A stretch of 8,968 bases of DNA from a bacterium Ga0077546. GTDB lineage: Bacteria > Cyanobacteriota > Vampirovibrionia > Obscuribacterales > Obscuribacteraceae. How positions within the stretch are numbered: the first letter of the stretch is position 1; every line of letters starts with the position of its first letter. Position numbers and translations under genes: made by a program. Shown here piece after piece: positions 2,377 to 7,727 of this stretch. Below the pieces are notes generated by a model. The model searched no databases. It saw only the letters and a list, made by a program, of their open reading frames with translations, and had not been told where the DNA came from. The DNA lies in the NCBI GenBank assembly GCA_001464165.1, contig LNEX01000281.1, forward strand, positions 1-8,968. Direction: 5' to 3'.

Positions 2377-2742
2377 CTATGCCTGGCGAGGGTGAATCCG
2401 CTCCAATTGCACCACAAATCTCATCGCGCTCCAGATGGCATACAACGGCCCACCTGGCGGCAGCAGAACATCCCGCTGAAGGCCGCTATCATCAACAAAA
2501 TAGAACCACTGCGAACTGGATCTGAGCATGGCAATCTCATCTTTCCAGGCGTCCCAATCTCCCGATGCCTCATACTGCCGCATAACCTTATCTAGTTCAG
2601 ACATTCCCATTTCGCGGATCTGTCCATATCGCAATTGATGCTTGAAAGACGGCCTAGACCAGAATACACGTCTTGATGTCGCGAAAAACCATGTTTCTGA
2701 ATCTTCAACAAAAGCAAACACTGGCAGCTCTTCAGGCTGCAA
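2377..2742 (-). pseudogene. Second PH-like domain, cut off by an in-frame stop
   Basis: This frame directly continues the preceding gene after a TAA (2745-2743); its nominal start, a TTG at 2742, immediately follows the stop codon and has no ribosome site. The 121 residues align with the first domain of the upstream part. EELPVFAF...TWFFATSRRVFW matches GEIPIVAC...SWVLLTTKRIIW over 25 positions without a gap, and WFYFVDDSG...LPPG matches LFLFDSSGG...LEPG. A stretch of about 26 residues (near 'MRQYEASGDW') is inserted between these blocks. The match also runs upstream across the stop codon for at least 16 residues (FRSLTVDLQHFLLAEA against FEEWDESVRVFLFAHS). The TTG is therefore inside a domain, not at its start. 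A broken gene, readthrough, reinitiation on the TTG, or a sequencing error could each explain it. Confidence 0.6.
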
Positions 2743-3342
2743 TTAGGCTTCAGCGAGCAGGAAATGTTGCAAGTCAACAGTCAGAGACCGAAACAATTTA
2801 GTGGAATAGACTTGAGATTGCTTCAAGAGAGATTTTTCTAACCGCAAAGCTTTATAGGCATCTGAACCGGTGGTCGGGGGGTCAGCCTGCATAAACCCTG
2901 CACGAGTCCGCCCAGGCCGCCCAGAAGATTTAAGCCAACCACTGAGAAGCTGCCAGATTGCATGCCTCATTGCCACTTGTGTTCTTCCAGGCTCAAGGTA
3001 GACCTCGTACCGACCACCAGAAGAATCAAACAGGAACAACGACGGGCTTCTTTCAGGGTCACTGGACAAACCAATATCTTCGATCTCTTCCAGCTTGAGC
3101 TCGCACTTACTATCATCCGGATCGGTCCAGATTATCCGCTTGGTTGTAAGCAAAACCCAACTAGCTTCTGACCGATAGCAAGCCACAATCGGAATTTCGC
3201 CCACTGCCAAATTTGAATGTGCGAAGAGAAAAACTCGAACCGACTCATCCCATTCTTCAAAGACCTTTGTCAGCTCCGAACCCTTGCCGAACTTCTGCTT
3301 TACTCGGGCAGCCTCTAACTCTTCAGATGGCTTCAAATGCAT
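2743..3342 (-). CDS. PH-like (bacterial) domain protein, probably 5' part of a two-domain gene
   Basis: The 199-residue product has no signal peptide or membrane segment. Residues about 25-137 form a PH-like beta domain, judged from the W-x-L-x-T-x-K-R-I-I-W core (W62, W72), the alternating acidic and hydrophobic strands (ELKLEEIEDIGLSS, SLFLFDSSGGRYEVYL) and a closing helix (AMRHAIWQLLSGW). Bacterial domains of this kind often sit beside membrane proteins, but the ligand is unknown and the family call is from pattern only. Residues 140-170 are a basic, Pro/Gly-rich linker, and 170-199 begin the second domain before the TAA. It starts with ATG nine bases after the RDD gene's stop, with a good Shine-Dalgarno sequence, GAGGAAG, overlapping that stop. 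The two genes are thus probably one operon with coupled translation. Confidence 0.7.
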   Translation of the reverse strand: MHLKPSEELEAARVKQKFGKGSELTKVFEEWDESVRVFLFAHSNLAVGEIPIVACYRSEASWVLLTTKRIIWTDPDDSKCELKLEEIEDIGLSSDPERSPSLFLFDSSGGRYEVYLEPGRTQVAMRHAIWQLLSGWLKSSGRPGRTRAGFMQADPPTTGSDAYKALRLEKSLLKQSQVYSTKLFRSLTVDLQHFLLAEA

Positions 3343-3346
3343 CGCA

Positions 3347-3353
3347 CTTCCTC
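3347..3353 (-). promoter_or_regulatory. Shine-Dalgarno GAGGAAG overlapping the upstream stop
   Basis: On the minus strand the RDD gene's TGA (3354-3352) runs into GAGGAAG, four bases before the ATG of the PH-like gene. It is among the strongest ribosome sites in the window. It fixes that start and implies coupling of translation between the two genes. Confidence 0.7.
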
Positions 3354-4029
3354 ATGAGCCTTGATTCCCACGCTTCAGAAAGTCTACCTCTAACCCTAGC
3401 AAATGTTCGGCATTGACAGCGAATGTTTGCTTTGAACTAGTGAAATGACACAGTAACAGTGAGTGCAGAATGCACGCCCCCCAAAGCAAATAGCATAAAA
3501 CGATTCCAAACTGAATTCCTAGAGAGTAGATTAGCTGTCCAAAGAAGCCGAACAGAACCGTTGTGGCCACAAAGAAAGCAATCGTACCGAGCACACAGGA
3601 GCACAAAACATAGAAATACTGAACACAACCGTAATCTATCTCGTTCATCCAACGATTGATTCGCTTTCTCCTAAAGTCAATCACTAGACCCATCAGCATC
3701 TCACCAGGTGTCTGGGAATGCATAAAGACTCTAAAGCAAAGGCGCAGATATATGATGGGAATTGGAGTGAGAAGCAACACTAGCGAAACGAGCACGACGT
3801 GATCCTTTGCCAATGCATGACCAAGACGTTGCATAAATCCGAAGCTGGCAGAAAACTCGGGCAGAGTGCCGAGATTGAACAAAATAGGAATGCTAACAAT
3901 GCCGCTACTGATAGCCCAGTCAACAACAAGGGCAGCAGTGCGCCGCTTCGCCATCTGCCAATTGTCTTGCAGGTCAGGCCTCGGCGCCACGTAAATTTCC
4001 GAATTCACTAAATTCGACCTTGTTAGCAA
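3352..4029 (-). CDS. RDD-family integral membrane protein
   Basis: The RDD motif is visible: KRRTAALVVDW (residues 28-38, with R30 and D37) at the first membrane helix, and SQTPGEMLMGLVI (105-117), which matches the family's G/S-Q-T-P-G-K block. There are four or so membrane helices, near 31-52, 76-97, 138-162 and 166-194, the last two in one hydrophobic tract. The function of RDD proteins is mostly unclear; some have been linked to ion transport. The start is uncertain. The longest frame begins at TTG 4029 with no ribosome site. A GTG at 4008 is preceded at a nine-base spacing by AAGG and would shorten the protein by seven residues to 218. An ATG at residue 26 would leave the domain nearly intact but has no ribosome site. 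It is the first gene of a minus-strand operon with the PH-like gene. Confidence 0.82.
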   Translation of the reverse strand: MLTRSNLVNSEIYVAPRPDLQDNWQMAKRRTAALVVDWAISSGIVSIPILFNLGTLPEFSASFGFMQRLGHALAKDHVVLVSLVLLLTPIPIIYLRLCFRVFMHSQTPGEMLMGLVIDFRRKRINRWMNEIDYGCVQYFYVLCSCVLGTIAFFVATTVLFGFFGQLIYSLGIQFGIVLCYLLWGACILHSLLLCHFTSSKQTFAVNAEHLLGLEVDFLKRGNQGS

Positions 4030-4043
4030 GTTGGTAACAACTT
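4028..4043. promoter_or_regulatory. Inverted repeat AAGTTG-GTAA-CAACTT
   Basis: Six-base arms separated by four bases form a perfect dyad over the possible TTG start of the RDD gene (minus strand). It lies in the 156-base gap between two divergent genes, so it could be an operator, but a dyad this short can arise by chance. A weak minus -10-like TATGCT lies near 4050. Confidence 0.3.
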
Positions 4044-4117
4044 AAAGCATACCCGGCCCTATATTGAAATCACAGAGCAGCGGTTGCAATTCTCCACCCC
4101 AGACCAGAGCCGCTCCT

Positions 4118-4185: not shown

Positions 4186-5400
4186 ATGAATATGAACATC
4201 AGAGACCTACAGGATCGCTCAAACACTCAAGATCGCACAAACTATCAAGACGCCGGCCAAGATAGATTTACTAGCTGGACACAACAAGCAAGCAACGATG
4301 CCACCGACTTCTTTCGCAGCCAAAGTAGAAGCCGCACCCCCGACAGAATGGCTCAAAACATGCTGGACAGCCTAGAAATAACACCCCTCTTTGTCAGCGT
4401 CAGCAATACATCTGACCACCGCTCGCACCGCAATTCCCGCGACTCTCATGATGGGCACAGGCTCGCTCACGACGGCCATCGCAACTCGATGAACGGAGAA
4501 CGCATCACCATTGATCTTGGTATCGGCGGCAGTGCCCTAGTAATTGACACAGTTAGAGATCGCCGAGGCAATTCAGAAGTACAGCTAATTAGTCTGCTCA
4601 ATCAAAGAAGACCTGAAGAACTAAATCGCACTATGCCATACGACCGCCACAATTCGCCAACGGCAGGCCAAGACATTTTGCCCCGCGATCGCTATGATTC
4701 GCCGTCACCAACGTCCGACACCAGACCACTGCCACCCTGCCCACCTGGGTTCGATCAAACAAAATGGGAAAATGGTCACGACACAATCAAATATGCAGTT
4801 GGAAGGGAGCTGGCCCGCTCATTCGATCAGCTTCTAGCTATTCCTGATGAAGCCGGACAGAAGAAATTTGCCGAAAACTTCCTCAAGACTCAAGTGCCAA
4901 ACATGGAAGCTCGCGGTGGAAAGGTTCTCGCCATTAAGGACGAAAAAGTATTGCTCGACGCTGGCGATGGCTCAGGCCCTCTCTGGATAGACGTTGTAAA
5001 AAACATCGGTGGCAGCAACCCTGAAGTACAGTGGACAGTGCTTGGCAAAGGAGATGCTTCACAAACCAGGGCACCCGAGTTCGCCCCCACGCCCCCAGGA
5101 TTCGACCCAGTGAAATGGGACAACGGCCACGATACACCTAAATATTTCGTCGGTCACCTAGTGGCAGATATGCTGCAGCAAGATCGACTAAATCCTGACC
5201 GAGACGGCCAGAAAGCAAGAGTAGAGCAGTTCCTGAAGAAGCAGGTTCCAGCCATCGAGGCTAAAGGCATCAAGGTACACAATGTCATCGGCGAAAAGAT
5301 ACTGATGGACGTCCATGATGGGACAGGCGCCCACTGGGTTGACACAGTAGCTGATGTCGGTGGAAAAAATCCACAAGCTAGCTGGTTGGTAGAAGCCTAA
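4186..5400 (+). CDS. Unrecognised hydrophilic protein with two tandem ~100-residue domains
   Basis: The protein has 404 residues, no signal peptide and no membrane segment. Residues 1-105 and about 140-183 look disordered: rich in Asp, Arg, Gln, Ser, His and Pro, with many R-x-R, Q-D-R and H-D-G-H-R elements. Between them lies a short strand-rich patch (ERITIDLGIGGSALVIDTV). Residues 184-287 and 301-403 are two copies of one domain. Each opens with PPGFDxxKWxNGHDTxKY and contains GQKxxxExFLKxQVPxxEAxG, the late motif DGxGxxWxDxVxxxGGxNP and a closing tryptophan strand. The conserved Asp, His and Trp positions may be structural or catalytic; I cannot tell. I know of no family match. It has an AAGAGG ribosome site (4171-4176), nine bases before the ATG. 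It ends 30 bases from the end of the convergent kinase gene, with no clear terminator. Confidence 0.75.
   Translation: MNMNIRDLQDRSNTQDRTNYQDAGQDRFTSWTQQASNDATDFFRSQSRSRTPDRMAQNMLDSLEITPLFVSVSNTSDHRSHRNSRDSHDGHRLAHDGHRNSMNGERITIDLGIGGSALVIDTVRDRRGNSEVQLISLLNQRRPEELNRTMPYDRHNSPTAGQDILPRDRYDSPSPTSDTRPLPPCPPGFDQTKWENGHDTIKYAVGRELARSFDQLLAIPDEAGQKKFAENFLKTQVPNMEARGGKVLAIKDEKVLLDAGDGSGPLWIDVVKNIGGSNPEVQWTVLGKGDASQTRAPEFAPTPPGFDPVKWDNGHDTPKYFVGHLVADMLQQDRLNPDRDGQKARVEQFLKKQVPAIEAKGIKVHNVIGEKILMDVHDGTGAHWVDTVADVGGKNPQASWLVEA
4735..5397 (+). repeat. Intragenic duplication of a ~100-residue domain
   Basis: Copy A (4735-5046) and copy B (5086-5397) encode clearly similar proteins and are joined by an Ala/Pro linker. 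The nucleotide sequences have drifted, so the duplication is old and both copies have been kept under selection at the protein level. The best-kept parts are the opening GFD, KW, GHD and KY residues and the later DGxG and GGxNP turns. Confidence 0.8.
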
Positions 5401-5430: not shown

Positions 5431-6906
5431 TTAAATCGCGGGGTTAGAAGTGGGCAGGTGGAGCCAGAAGATGCTCCCACTGCCCACTTCGCTTACCACA
5501 CCAATCTCTCCGTCATGGGCCTCAACAATAGCTTTGCAAATAGCAAGTCCGAGGCCACTGGTTCCTGCACCGCCACCGTGAGCTTGTTGAAAGCGGTCGA
5601 AAACAGAGTCTAACATGTGGCGCGGAATACCTTTTCCTTGGTCTTCGATCTTAATGTGCGCACTATCTTTCTTCATAGCGATACTCACTGTTATGGTGGC
5701 ACCATGCGGCGAATATTTGATAGCATTCGAAAGCAGGTTAATAAACACCTGCATAATTCGCTCTTTGTCTATAAAGGCAACAGCATGATCGCCAAAGACT
5801 TCAATTTTAATAGAATTGGCATCAGCAAGTGTTTTCACAACGGCAATAGACTGCAAGGCAAGCTCTGCTAGGTCAGTGGCTGCCCTATTCAATTCCATCA
5901 TTCCTGCTTCCATTTTTTCAATATCGAGCAGCTCATTGACTAGACTAAGTAGACGATCACACTCAATTTGTGCATGGCTTAACCGCTTCTTTCCTTTGTC
6001 TGAGATTTCTCCATACAAGCCCCTCTCAACAAGTTCTATCGCTCCTTGTATGGCAGAAAGAGGGCTGCGCAACTCGTGGCTGACCATCGCCACAAAAGCC
6101 TGCTTCATCTCTTCTGCTTTACTAACATCGTCTGCCATTTTTCTAAAGGCAGCGTCAAGCTCTGCCACTTCGTCGTTGCCTTCAATTGGTGGCAAGAGCG
6201 GTTTGTGCTCAACGAAGAGTTCGGCATTTCGGCTCAAGATATTTAGCCTAGCGGCAATGTCACGACTAAAGTAAACAACCACACCAAGCGAGAGCAACAG
6301 ATTCAAAAGCGCTCCAGCTAGTATGTACAGCCTAAATTCTTGCTTTCGCGCCTCTTCGCTGGTAGGCAAACGCTCTTGAATTTGCCTTTCTTCAATAGTT
6401 AAGCGATGTAGTTCATCAACATAGGTCTTAAAGGAGCCTTCAATCTGGCTTCTAAATTTACCAAACTCAAAGTGATAGACATCCTGCGGCGTCTCTTCGA
6501 TTCGTTTCTTATGCCAGTTGAGCACAGAGACTACACTTTGCGCCTGTGTCTCTACAGACTTAAGACGTTCAATGCGAGTAGGGTCGTCTTTGAGCAAAGC
6601 TTTTAACTTAGCAGCACGCTCAGGAATAACGGCTATCGAGTCATCTAGTCGCTTTAGCAGTGCATCATTTCTCATGTAATTCCAGGCAATAATGGCGCTT
6701 CCAGCGTCGAATAAATCACGCTGGGCTTGATTAGCTTCTGCCACAATTGCTCTTGAGCGATATTCGCGCTCGGCCACGACCTGTGCATTCTCCAAGAGAG
6801 CGCTGAGCACAGCCAAGTAAATGAGCCCCAACAGAAGAGGCACAGCAGCCATTATTAAGCCTTTTTGAGCGACTGAAAGCTTCAATGCATCCGCCAATAC
6901 TAACAA
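5431..6906 (-). CDS. Membrane sensor histidine kinase
   Basis: This 491-residue kinase has a first membrane helix at about residues 17-38, an extracytoplasmic helical region of about 150 residues (40-190, CHASE3-like in pattern) and a second helix at 193-213. A HAMP linker follows (to about 265). The dimerisation/H-box reads [12 protein letters not shown], with phospho-acceptor H277. The catalytic domain shows the N box [13 protein letters not shown] (388-400), G1 DQGKGIP (422-428), the F box FDRFQQ (436-441) and G2 GTSGLGLAI (448-456). All core residues are present, so it should be active. The frame opens only three codons before a TTG, which I take as the start; the first ATG is inside the first helix. 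No ribosome site is seen. It is transcribed away from the response regulator gene and shares its control region, so the two should form a pair. The stimulus is unknown. Confidence 0.93.
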
Positions 6907-7055: not shown

Positions 7056-7727
7056 ATGATCAAAATTCTTTTTGCCGAAGACGACCAGAAACTCGCTGAC
7101 CTTGTTGTAGACTTTCTCAGTGCCGAAGGTTATGAGCTAGATCACGTCACCAGCGGTCCGGTGGCATTAAAGCGGCTTGAACAAGAGCAGTATGACGGGC
7201 TCATCCTTGACGTTGGCTTGCCAGGAATGTCAGGATTTGATGTCTGTCAGGCCTACCGTAAACATGGTGGCAGCGCGCCAATATTATTCCTTACTGGTCA
7301 AGATACTCTGGCTGATAAAGAACGTGGCCTTGATTTGGGAGCCGATGATTACTTAACCAAACCCTTTCACATGCGAGAACTAGGGGCTCGCTTAAGAGCC
7401 ATAGCCAGGCGGTCAAGAACCAATGTTGCCGTTCGCCTCGAAATTGCTGACCTCAGCCTTGATGCAGCTAATCACACAGTCAGTAAGGGGGGAATACCCT
7501 TACAACTTATGCCGCAAGAATATGCCTTACTCAACTTTTTCATGCGCAATCCGCGGCGCACATTCAGCCAGAACGAACTGTTAGATCAAGTCTGGTCGAA
7601 AGAAAGCGATGCCTCTCCAGACACTGTGCGGGTTCACATTACTAAGTTGAGGGCCAAGATTGATACACCGGGCACAGAATCAATAATTAAGACTGTACAC
7701 AGAGTTGGCTACAAACTAGAACCTTAA
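7056..7727 (+). CDS. OmpR-family two-component response regulator
   Basis: The 223-residue protein has the full receiver domain (1-117): acidic pair D9/D10, phospho-acceptor D52 in LILDVGLPG, T80 in LFLT and K102 in TKPF. A winged-helix DNA-binding domain follows (about 126-222), with SPDTVRVHITKLRAKI as the recognition-helix region and the usual C-terminal HRVGYKL wing. The ATG has only a weak ribosome site, GTGAG. It is divergent from the histidine kinase gene 150 bases away, the natural partner; divergence rather than an operon suggests shared and probably self-controlled expression from the gap. I see no strong terminator after it. A target regulon cannot be read from this window. Confidence 0.93.
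   Translation: MIKILFAEDDQKLADLVVDFLSAEGYELDHVTSGPVALKRLEQEQYDGLILDVGLPGMSGFDVCQAYRKHGGSAPILFLTGQDTLADKERGLDLGADDYLTKPFHMRELGARLRAIARRSRTNVAVRLEIADLSLDAANHTVSKGGIPLQLMPQEYALLNFFMRNPRRTFSQNELLDQVWSKESDASPDTVRVHITKLRAKIDTPGTESIIKTVHRVGYKLEP

Follow-up and report, generated by a model that had tools for sequence, protein, structure and literature searches.

The PH-like gene in the stretch of DNA analysed here (the window, 8,968 nucleotides) is probably a nonsense allele of a bacterial gene that normally encodes two fused PH-like domains, and an ordinary recent mutation most likely accounts for it. On the minus strand, one frame runs from the ATG at 3342 to the TAG at 2377 and contains a single in-frame internal stop, the TAA at 2745–2743, preceded by 199 codons and followed by 121. 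The remaining two frames across 3342–2377 contain 11 and 27 stops. Reading of the frame confirms the description, in an earlier note on this DNA, of two open reading frames that are one frame split by a single TAA. An SD-like AGGAAG begins 10 nt 5' of ATG 3342. The ORF as it stands (2743–3342, minus strand) encodes 199 amino acids, made up of the first PH-like domain and the helical start of the second, and then ends at the TAA. The frame after the stop (2377–2742, minus strand) has 121 codons and the TAG. On the basis of the frame and of the model of P0001, the protein of the nearest relative, it would contain all of the second PH-like barrel, together with the helix at its C-terminus.

The nearest intact ortholog is in Cyanobacteriota bacterium erpe_2018_sw_21hr_WHONDRS-SW48-000092_B_bin.40, a Cyanobacteriota MAG, at positions 5306–6271 of L001, and its product is P0001. 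L001 was the only relative from the genome-contig scan and is 91% identical. It encodes the same two-domain protein, with 91% identity to the window in the part that precedes the stop and 86% in the part that follows, and has flanking genes alike on both sides, but it lacks the internal stop and is open through this position to give a protein of 321 residues. The window TAA (2743–2745, minus strand) differs by one nucleotide from the L001 codon, which encodes glutamine, and comparison with the relatives shows a sense codon here. All 12 proteins from two protein searches (P0001–P0012, of which P0004 and P0012 have the source name Candidatus Obscuribacterales) cover the position with a sense residue (Q in 8, E in 2, H in 1, and P in 1), although this count is biased because protein collections cannot list proteins with internal stops. 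On the strength of the two source names, the window probably comes from an uncultured relative of the Obscuribacterales. The DNA counts therefore weigh more. L001 belongs to genome G001, and in the order of that genome 11 out of 53 genomes match. Two-domain genes present as one open frame with no internal stop are found in the DNA of G001, G017, and G035, with neighbours in G017 and G035 that differ from those in the window. A single-domain gene like the second half is found in six genomes (G011, G043, G018, G048, G049, and G016), and weak matches are found in G037 (E 1e-6) and at two places in G020 (E 5e-6 and 7e-6). No separate first domain was found in the 4–19 kb around the six single-domain genes. 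Only G001 itself matches in an even sample of 386 genomes across the phylum, in which no more than five candidates were scored for each genome listed. The plasmid search gave no match, and of the viral contigs 2 stretches fit a pattern and 0 encode a relative.

The three fused genes and the open close orthologs indicate that fusion is the normal state in close kin, while the single-domain form is common further off. Domains that are always separate genes, which the earlier note had named as grounds against an interrupted gene, are not what is seen, the close orthologs being fused and open. The six clear single-domain relatives align from P0001 residues 155–158, which is 42–45 residues before the stop. 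A natural two-gene arrangement was rejected for the close kin. Taken with the sense residue in 12 out of 12 proteins, the three stop-free two-domain genes argue that this is a nonsense allele, the gene being normally fused. One nucleotide change from the L001 sense codon would have made the TAA, probably recently. Translation would then end after the first domain and a helix, and the second barrel would not be made, or would be made at trace level only. Of the 320 sense codons in the PH-like gene, 117 are one change from a stop and the gene is therefore an ordinary nonsense target. Bacterial genomes commonly carry single nonsense alleles. In common with bacterial pseudogenes that result from single nonsense mutations, there is one substitution, the relatives are intact, and there is probably little decay so far. 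The difference is that this PH-like family also exchanges domains, at a boundary that adjoins the stop.

The first PH-like barrel and its C-terminal helix correspond to residues 51–134 (2941–3192, minus strand) in the P0001 model and fit the PH superfamily, being a barrel of this type capped by a C-terminal helix. The second PH-like barrel and C-terminal helix correspond to residues 207–316 (2395–2724, minus strand), which in the model are entirely after the stop. The order of strands and helices in the second domain is similar to that of the first in this model, and the two have sequence homology. When modelled alone the second domain has the same order of elements, but with low confidence (pLDDT 52.9), and it is barely covered in one comparison used for the assignment of the first barrel. 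Residues 1–149 are 29% identical to the post-stop piece over 45 residues (E 2e-7) and 24% identical over 150 residues (E 3e-11) to P0004, which is related to the second half. The P0004 alignment is ungapped through the stop position, which bears out the earlier proposal that the homology of the two PH-like copies is gapless across the stop. The stop had also been proposed to replace a residue inside a conserved strand, but the P0001 model places residue 200 after a helix at residues 189–199 (2746–2778, minus strand), where the exchange breakpoints described below are also found, and starts the first strand of the second barrel at residue 207. The stop is therefore placed not in a conserved strand but in a loop, variable in sequence, that precedes the second barrel. 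It most likely abolishes the second domain.

None of the Pfam bacterial PH families scored above its cut-off. PF14470 (bPH_3) matches 2 out of 14 sequences with a best E of 0.021, PF11605 has an E of 0.0016 and 19.0 bits, which is under the curated cut-off of 24.1, and PF08000 was absent from the Pfam profile matches up to an E of 1. In NCBIfam there was one family only (E 0.047 to 0.088), far under its cut-off, and the PDB sequence search gave a single chance-level match (E 0.85). Up to an E of 1, none of the defence-system models matched P0001, P0006, the RDD-like protein, or the G035 relative. With its score below the cut-off, the likeness to the Vps36 GLUE or ESCRT-II PH domain (PF11605) is at the level of the fold only. 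Compared with the PHb domains of bacteria (structures 3dcx and 3hsa; Xu et al. 2010, PMC2817789), the protein here has two tandem copies and no Pfam PH family above cut-off. A literature search for a link between Obscuribacter and pleckstrin homology found none. By analogy with bacterial PH domains (PMC2817789), the intact protein may bind a partner protein, and the truncated form would hold this partner, if at all, via its first domain only.

Of the three options raised in the earlier note, a recent nonsense mutation fits best, since the close orthologs are fused and open; readthrough is unsupported, reinitiation at the TTG is weak, and a sequence error is less likely in light of P0013. Programmed readthrough of the TAA, generating a low level of full-length protein, is extremely improbable. 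The frame is kept and the homology is continuous over the stop, as readthrough would require, but the stop is absent from the relatives, and the RNA around it is not unusually structured (141 nt, z 0.66, with 149 of 200 shuffles folding at least as well). TAA is generally regarded as the least leaky stop in bacteria. It also ends five other ORFs in the window, including those of the histidine kinase and the response regulator, which indicates that TAA is read as a stop here, and recoding of TAA was rejected on this evidence.

It is very unlikely that the gene has become a functional split, in which the 199 amino acid piece works together with a second barrel reinitiated at TTG 2742 or at a later start. 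The location of the stop, in a loop that leads into the second barrel, beside the exchange boundary, would suit such an arrangement, as would the single-domain relatives, with P0003–P0005 being called without a first domain, and the Shine-Dalgarno matches of 4/6 for GTG 2721 and ATG 2583. However, the single-domain matches begin at residues 155–158 and therefore keep helices that the downstream piece lacks. In the P0001 model, GTG 2721 is inside the first barrel strand and ATG 2583 is past several strands. The Shine-Dalgarno matches for TTG 2742 and ATG 2610 are 3/6, as against 5/6 for ATG 3342. The adjacent TTG named for reinitiation in the earlier note is moreover a leucine codon that is present in L001 too.

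A one-base sequencing or assembly error, with the gene being intact in the organism, is an unlikely explanation, yet a less remote one than the split. A single nucleotide is sufficient and the sequence after the stop still looks constrained. Against an error, eight ORFs or pieces in the window align codon by codon with L001 over 121–404 codons, and a second sequence starts after the stop. This sequence, P0013, was found with the post-stop piece and is a protein of 77 residues from one contig of 2323 bases. In the alignment it starts exactly at the first post-stop ATG of the window (residue 245; 2608–2610, minus strand) and is identical at 76 out of 77 residues, with P for Q at residue 278, and therefore differs in sequence from the window. 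A protein truncated at the end of a contig may begin with a residue other than M, as is the case for P0012, which is partial according to its source. The start of P0013 at the ATG after the stop makes an error private to the window less likely. Known from its protein only, P0013 has the start that a gene caller would be expected to give if the frame were closed upstream there too, and shows only that its frame is probably closed somewhere before residue 245. No upstream fragment matching P0013 was listed in the first protein search; at 91% identity, this may sit in the 90% cluster of P0001.

The exchange of the second barrel between diverged backbones is well supported by sequence comparison. 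P0003 and P0008 are 42% identical over residues 155–199 and 96% identical over residues 201–321. Over these two stretches, P0004 and P0007 are 53% and 96% identical, and P0001 and P0006 are 51% and 93% identical. Breakpoints are located before residues 199, 195, and 195 in these three pairs, respectively, and at 190 (window and P0007), 192 (P0002 and P0006), and 190 (P0003 and P0007) in three others, and for each of the six pairs 0 out of 2000 shuffles came up to the observed value. P0001 and P0009 have no breakpoint (685 of 2000 shuffles reach the observed value). A breakpoint at residues 190–199 is therefore present in 6 of the 7 pairs tested, these pairs having been picked after inspection of the identity table. 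The tree of residues 202–321 rejects (AU p 1.6e-6) a grouping of the six sequences in which the part preceding the stop is of the window type, and the tree of residues 155–199 rejects the joining of P0003 with P0008 (AU p 1e-5). Together, the jumps in identity, the breakpoints, and the conflicting trees indicate that the second barrel has been exchanged between backbones, at a boundary no more than about ten codons upstream of the stop. Chimeric assembly as the source of the mosaic proteins is unlikely, since the P0001, P0008, P0003, P0004, and P0007 clusters represent 11, 7, 3, 2, and 2 contigs, P0006 is in a contig of 6.69 Mb, and the exchanged parts are 93–96% identical rather than the same.

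That the exchange boundary adjoins the stop may be coincidence. A stop created by the domain exchange itself is not supported, because the DNA to either side hardly differs from that of L001. It is also improbable, although not to the degree of the functional split, that, at a modular and recombining locus, the stop, if common to the window and the P0013 contig, marks a circulating split form rather than random debris, with the backbone and the second-barrel module as pieces that recombination could rejoin. For the nonsense allele, the stop codon by itself matters little, such an allele being ordinary, while the gene recombines to an unusual degree. Of greater use is a small PH-like family in which diverged backbones swap the second domain. 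Changing partners are often what confronts proteins that exchange a single domain and keep the remainder, and this family could therefore be a tractable case for the question of what bacterial PH domains bind.

The PH-like gene of the window itself looks recombined in its divergence from L001. Its dS is 0.13 before the stop and 0.23 after it, below the 0.46 or more of its neighbours. These have values of 0.71 for the histidine kinase (282 codons present in L001), 0.71 for the gene encoding 404 amino acids, 0.76 for the RDD-like gene, 0.46 for the 148 amino acid gene, and 2.09 for the 265 amino acid gene, and the acetyltransferase is saturated. The contrast between the PH-like gene and its flanks is smaller in plain DNA identity than in dS. 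In 100-base steps, identity to L001 is 84–99% over 3345–2246, 64–81% over 2245–1447, and 44–54% over 1446–1200, and the genes for the histidine kinase and the 404 amino acid protein are mostly at 72–92%, with lower steps at gaps.

Relative to L001, dN/dS is 0.30 up to the stop and 0.26 beyond it, and the corresponding Fisher p values for dN<dS are 0.0007 and 0.0002. The ratio of 0.26 indicates that the second half was constrained for most of the time since the window and L001 split, and similar ratios on both sides are expected if the stop is young. Residues unique to the window are found at 6 of the 199 columns before the stop and 5 of the 121 after it, one of these 5 being merely the TTG read as M. 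The nine closest relatives agree with one another at three of the others, residues 227, 278, and 310. These hint at relaxed constraint but are too few to rely on, and P0002 alone has 6 unique residues after the stop point.

The RDD-like gene (3352–4029, minus strand; Pfam RDD 20.8 bits, cut-off 24.1) is 9 nt upstream of the PH-like gene on the same strand. In L001 this gap is about 2.4 kb and has three ORFs. The L001 segment 2910–5304, absent at window 3344–3359, encodes response-regulator-like, WG-repeat-like, and membrane-like ORFs, as named by eye. Repeats that might mark a mobile cassette at the ends of the PH-like gene are short and imperfect ones only. P0002 and L001 have residues upstream of the PH-like start in common. 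The RDD-like gene is a mosaic relative to L001 (window 3346–4104), with 82–97% identity over 4104–3705 and 52–68% over 3704–3405. Further along, the 404 amino acid protein (4186–5400) contains two copies of a PPGFDxxKWxNGHDT-type segment and has a dN/dS to L001 of 0.05, with no Pfam match at E up to 1. The window also encodes, in divergent arrangement, a histidine kinase (5431–6906), with a weak CHASE3 match below the cut-off, and a response regulator (7056–7727) with a Trans_reg_C output domain.
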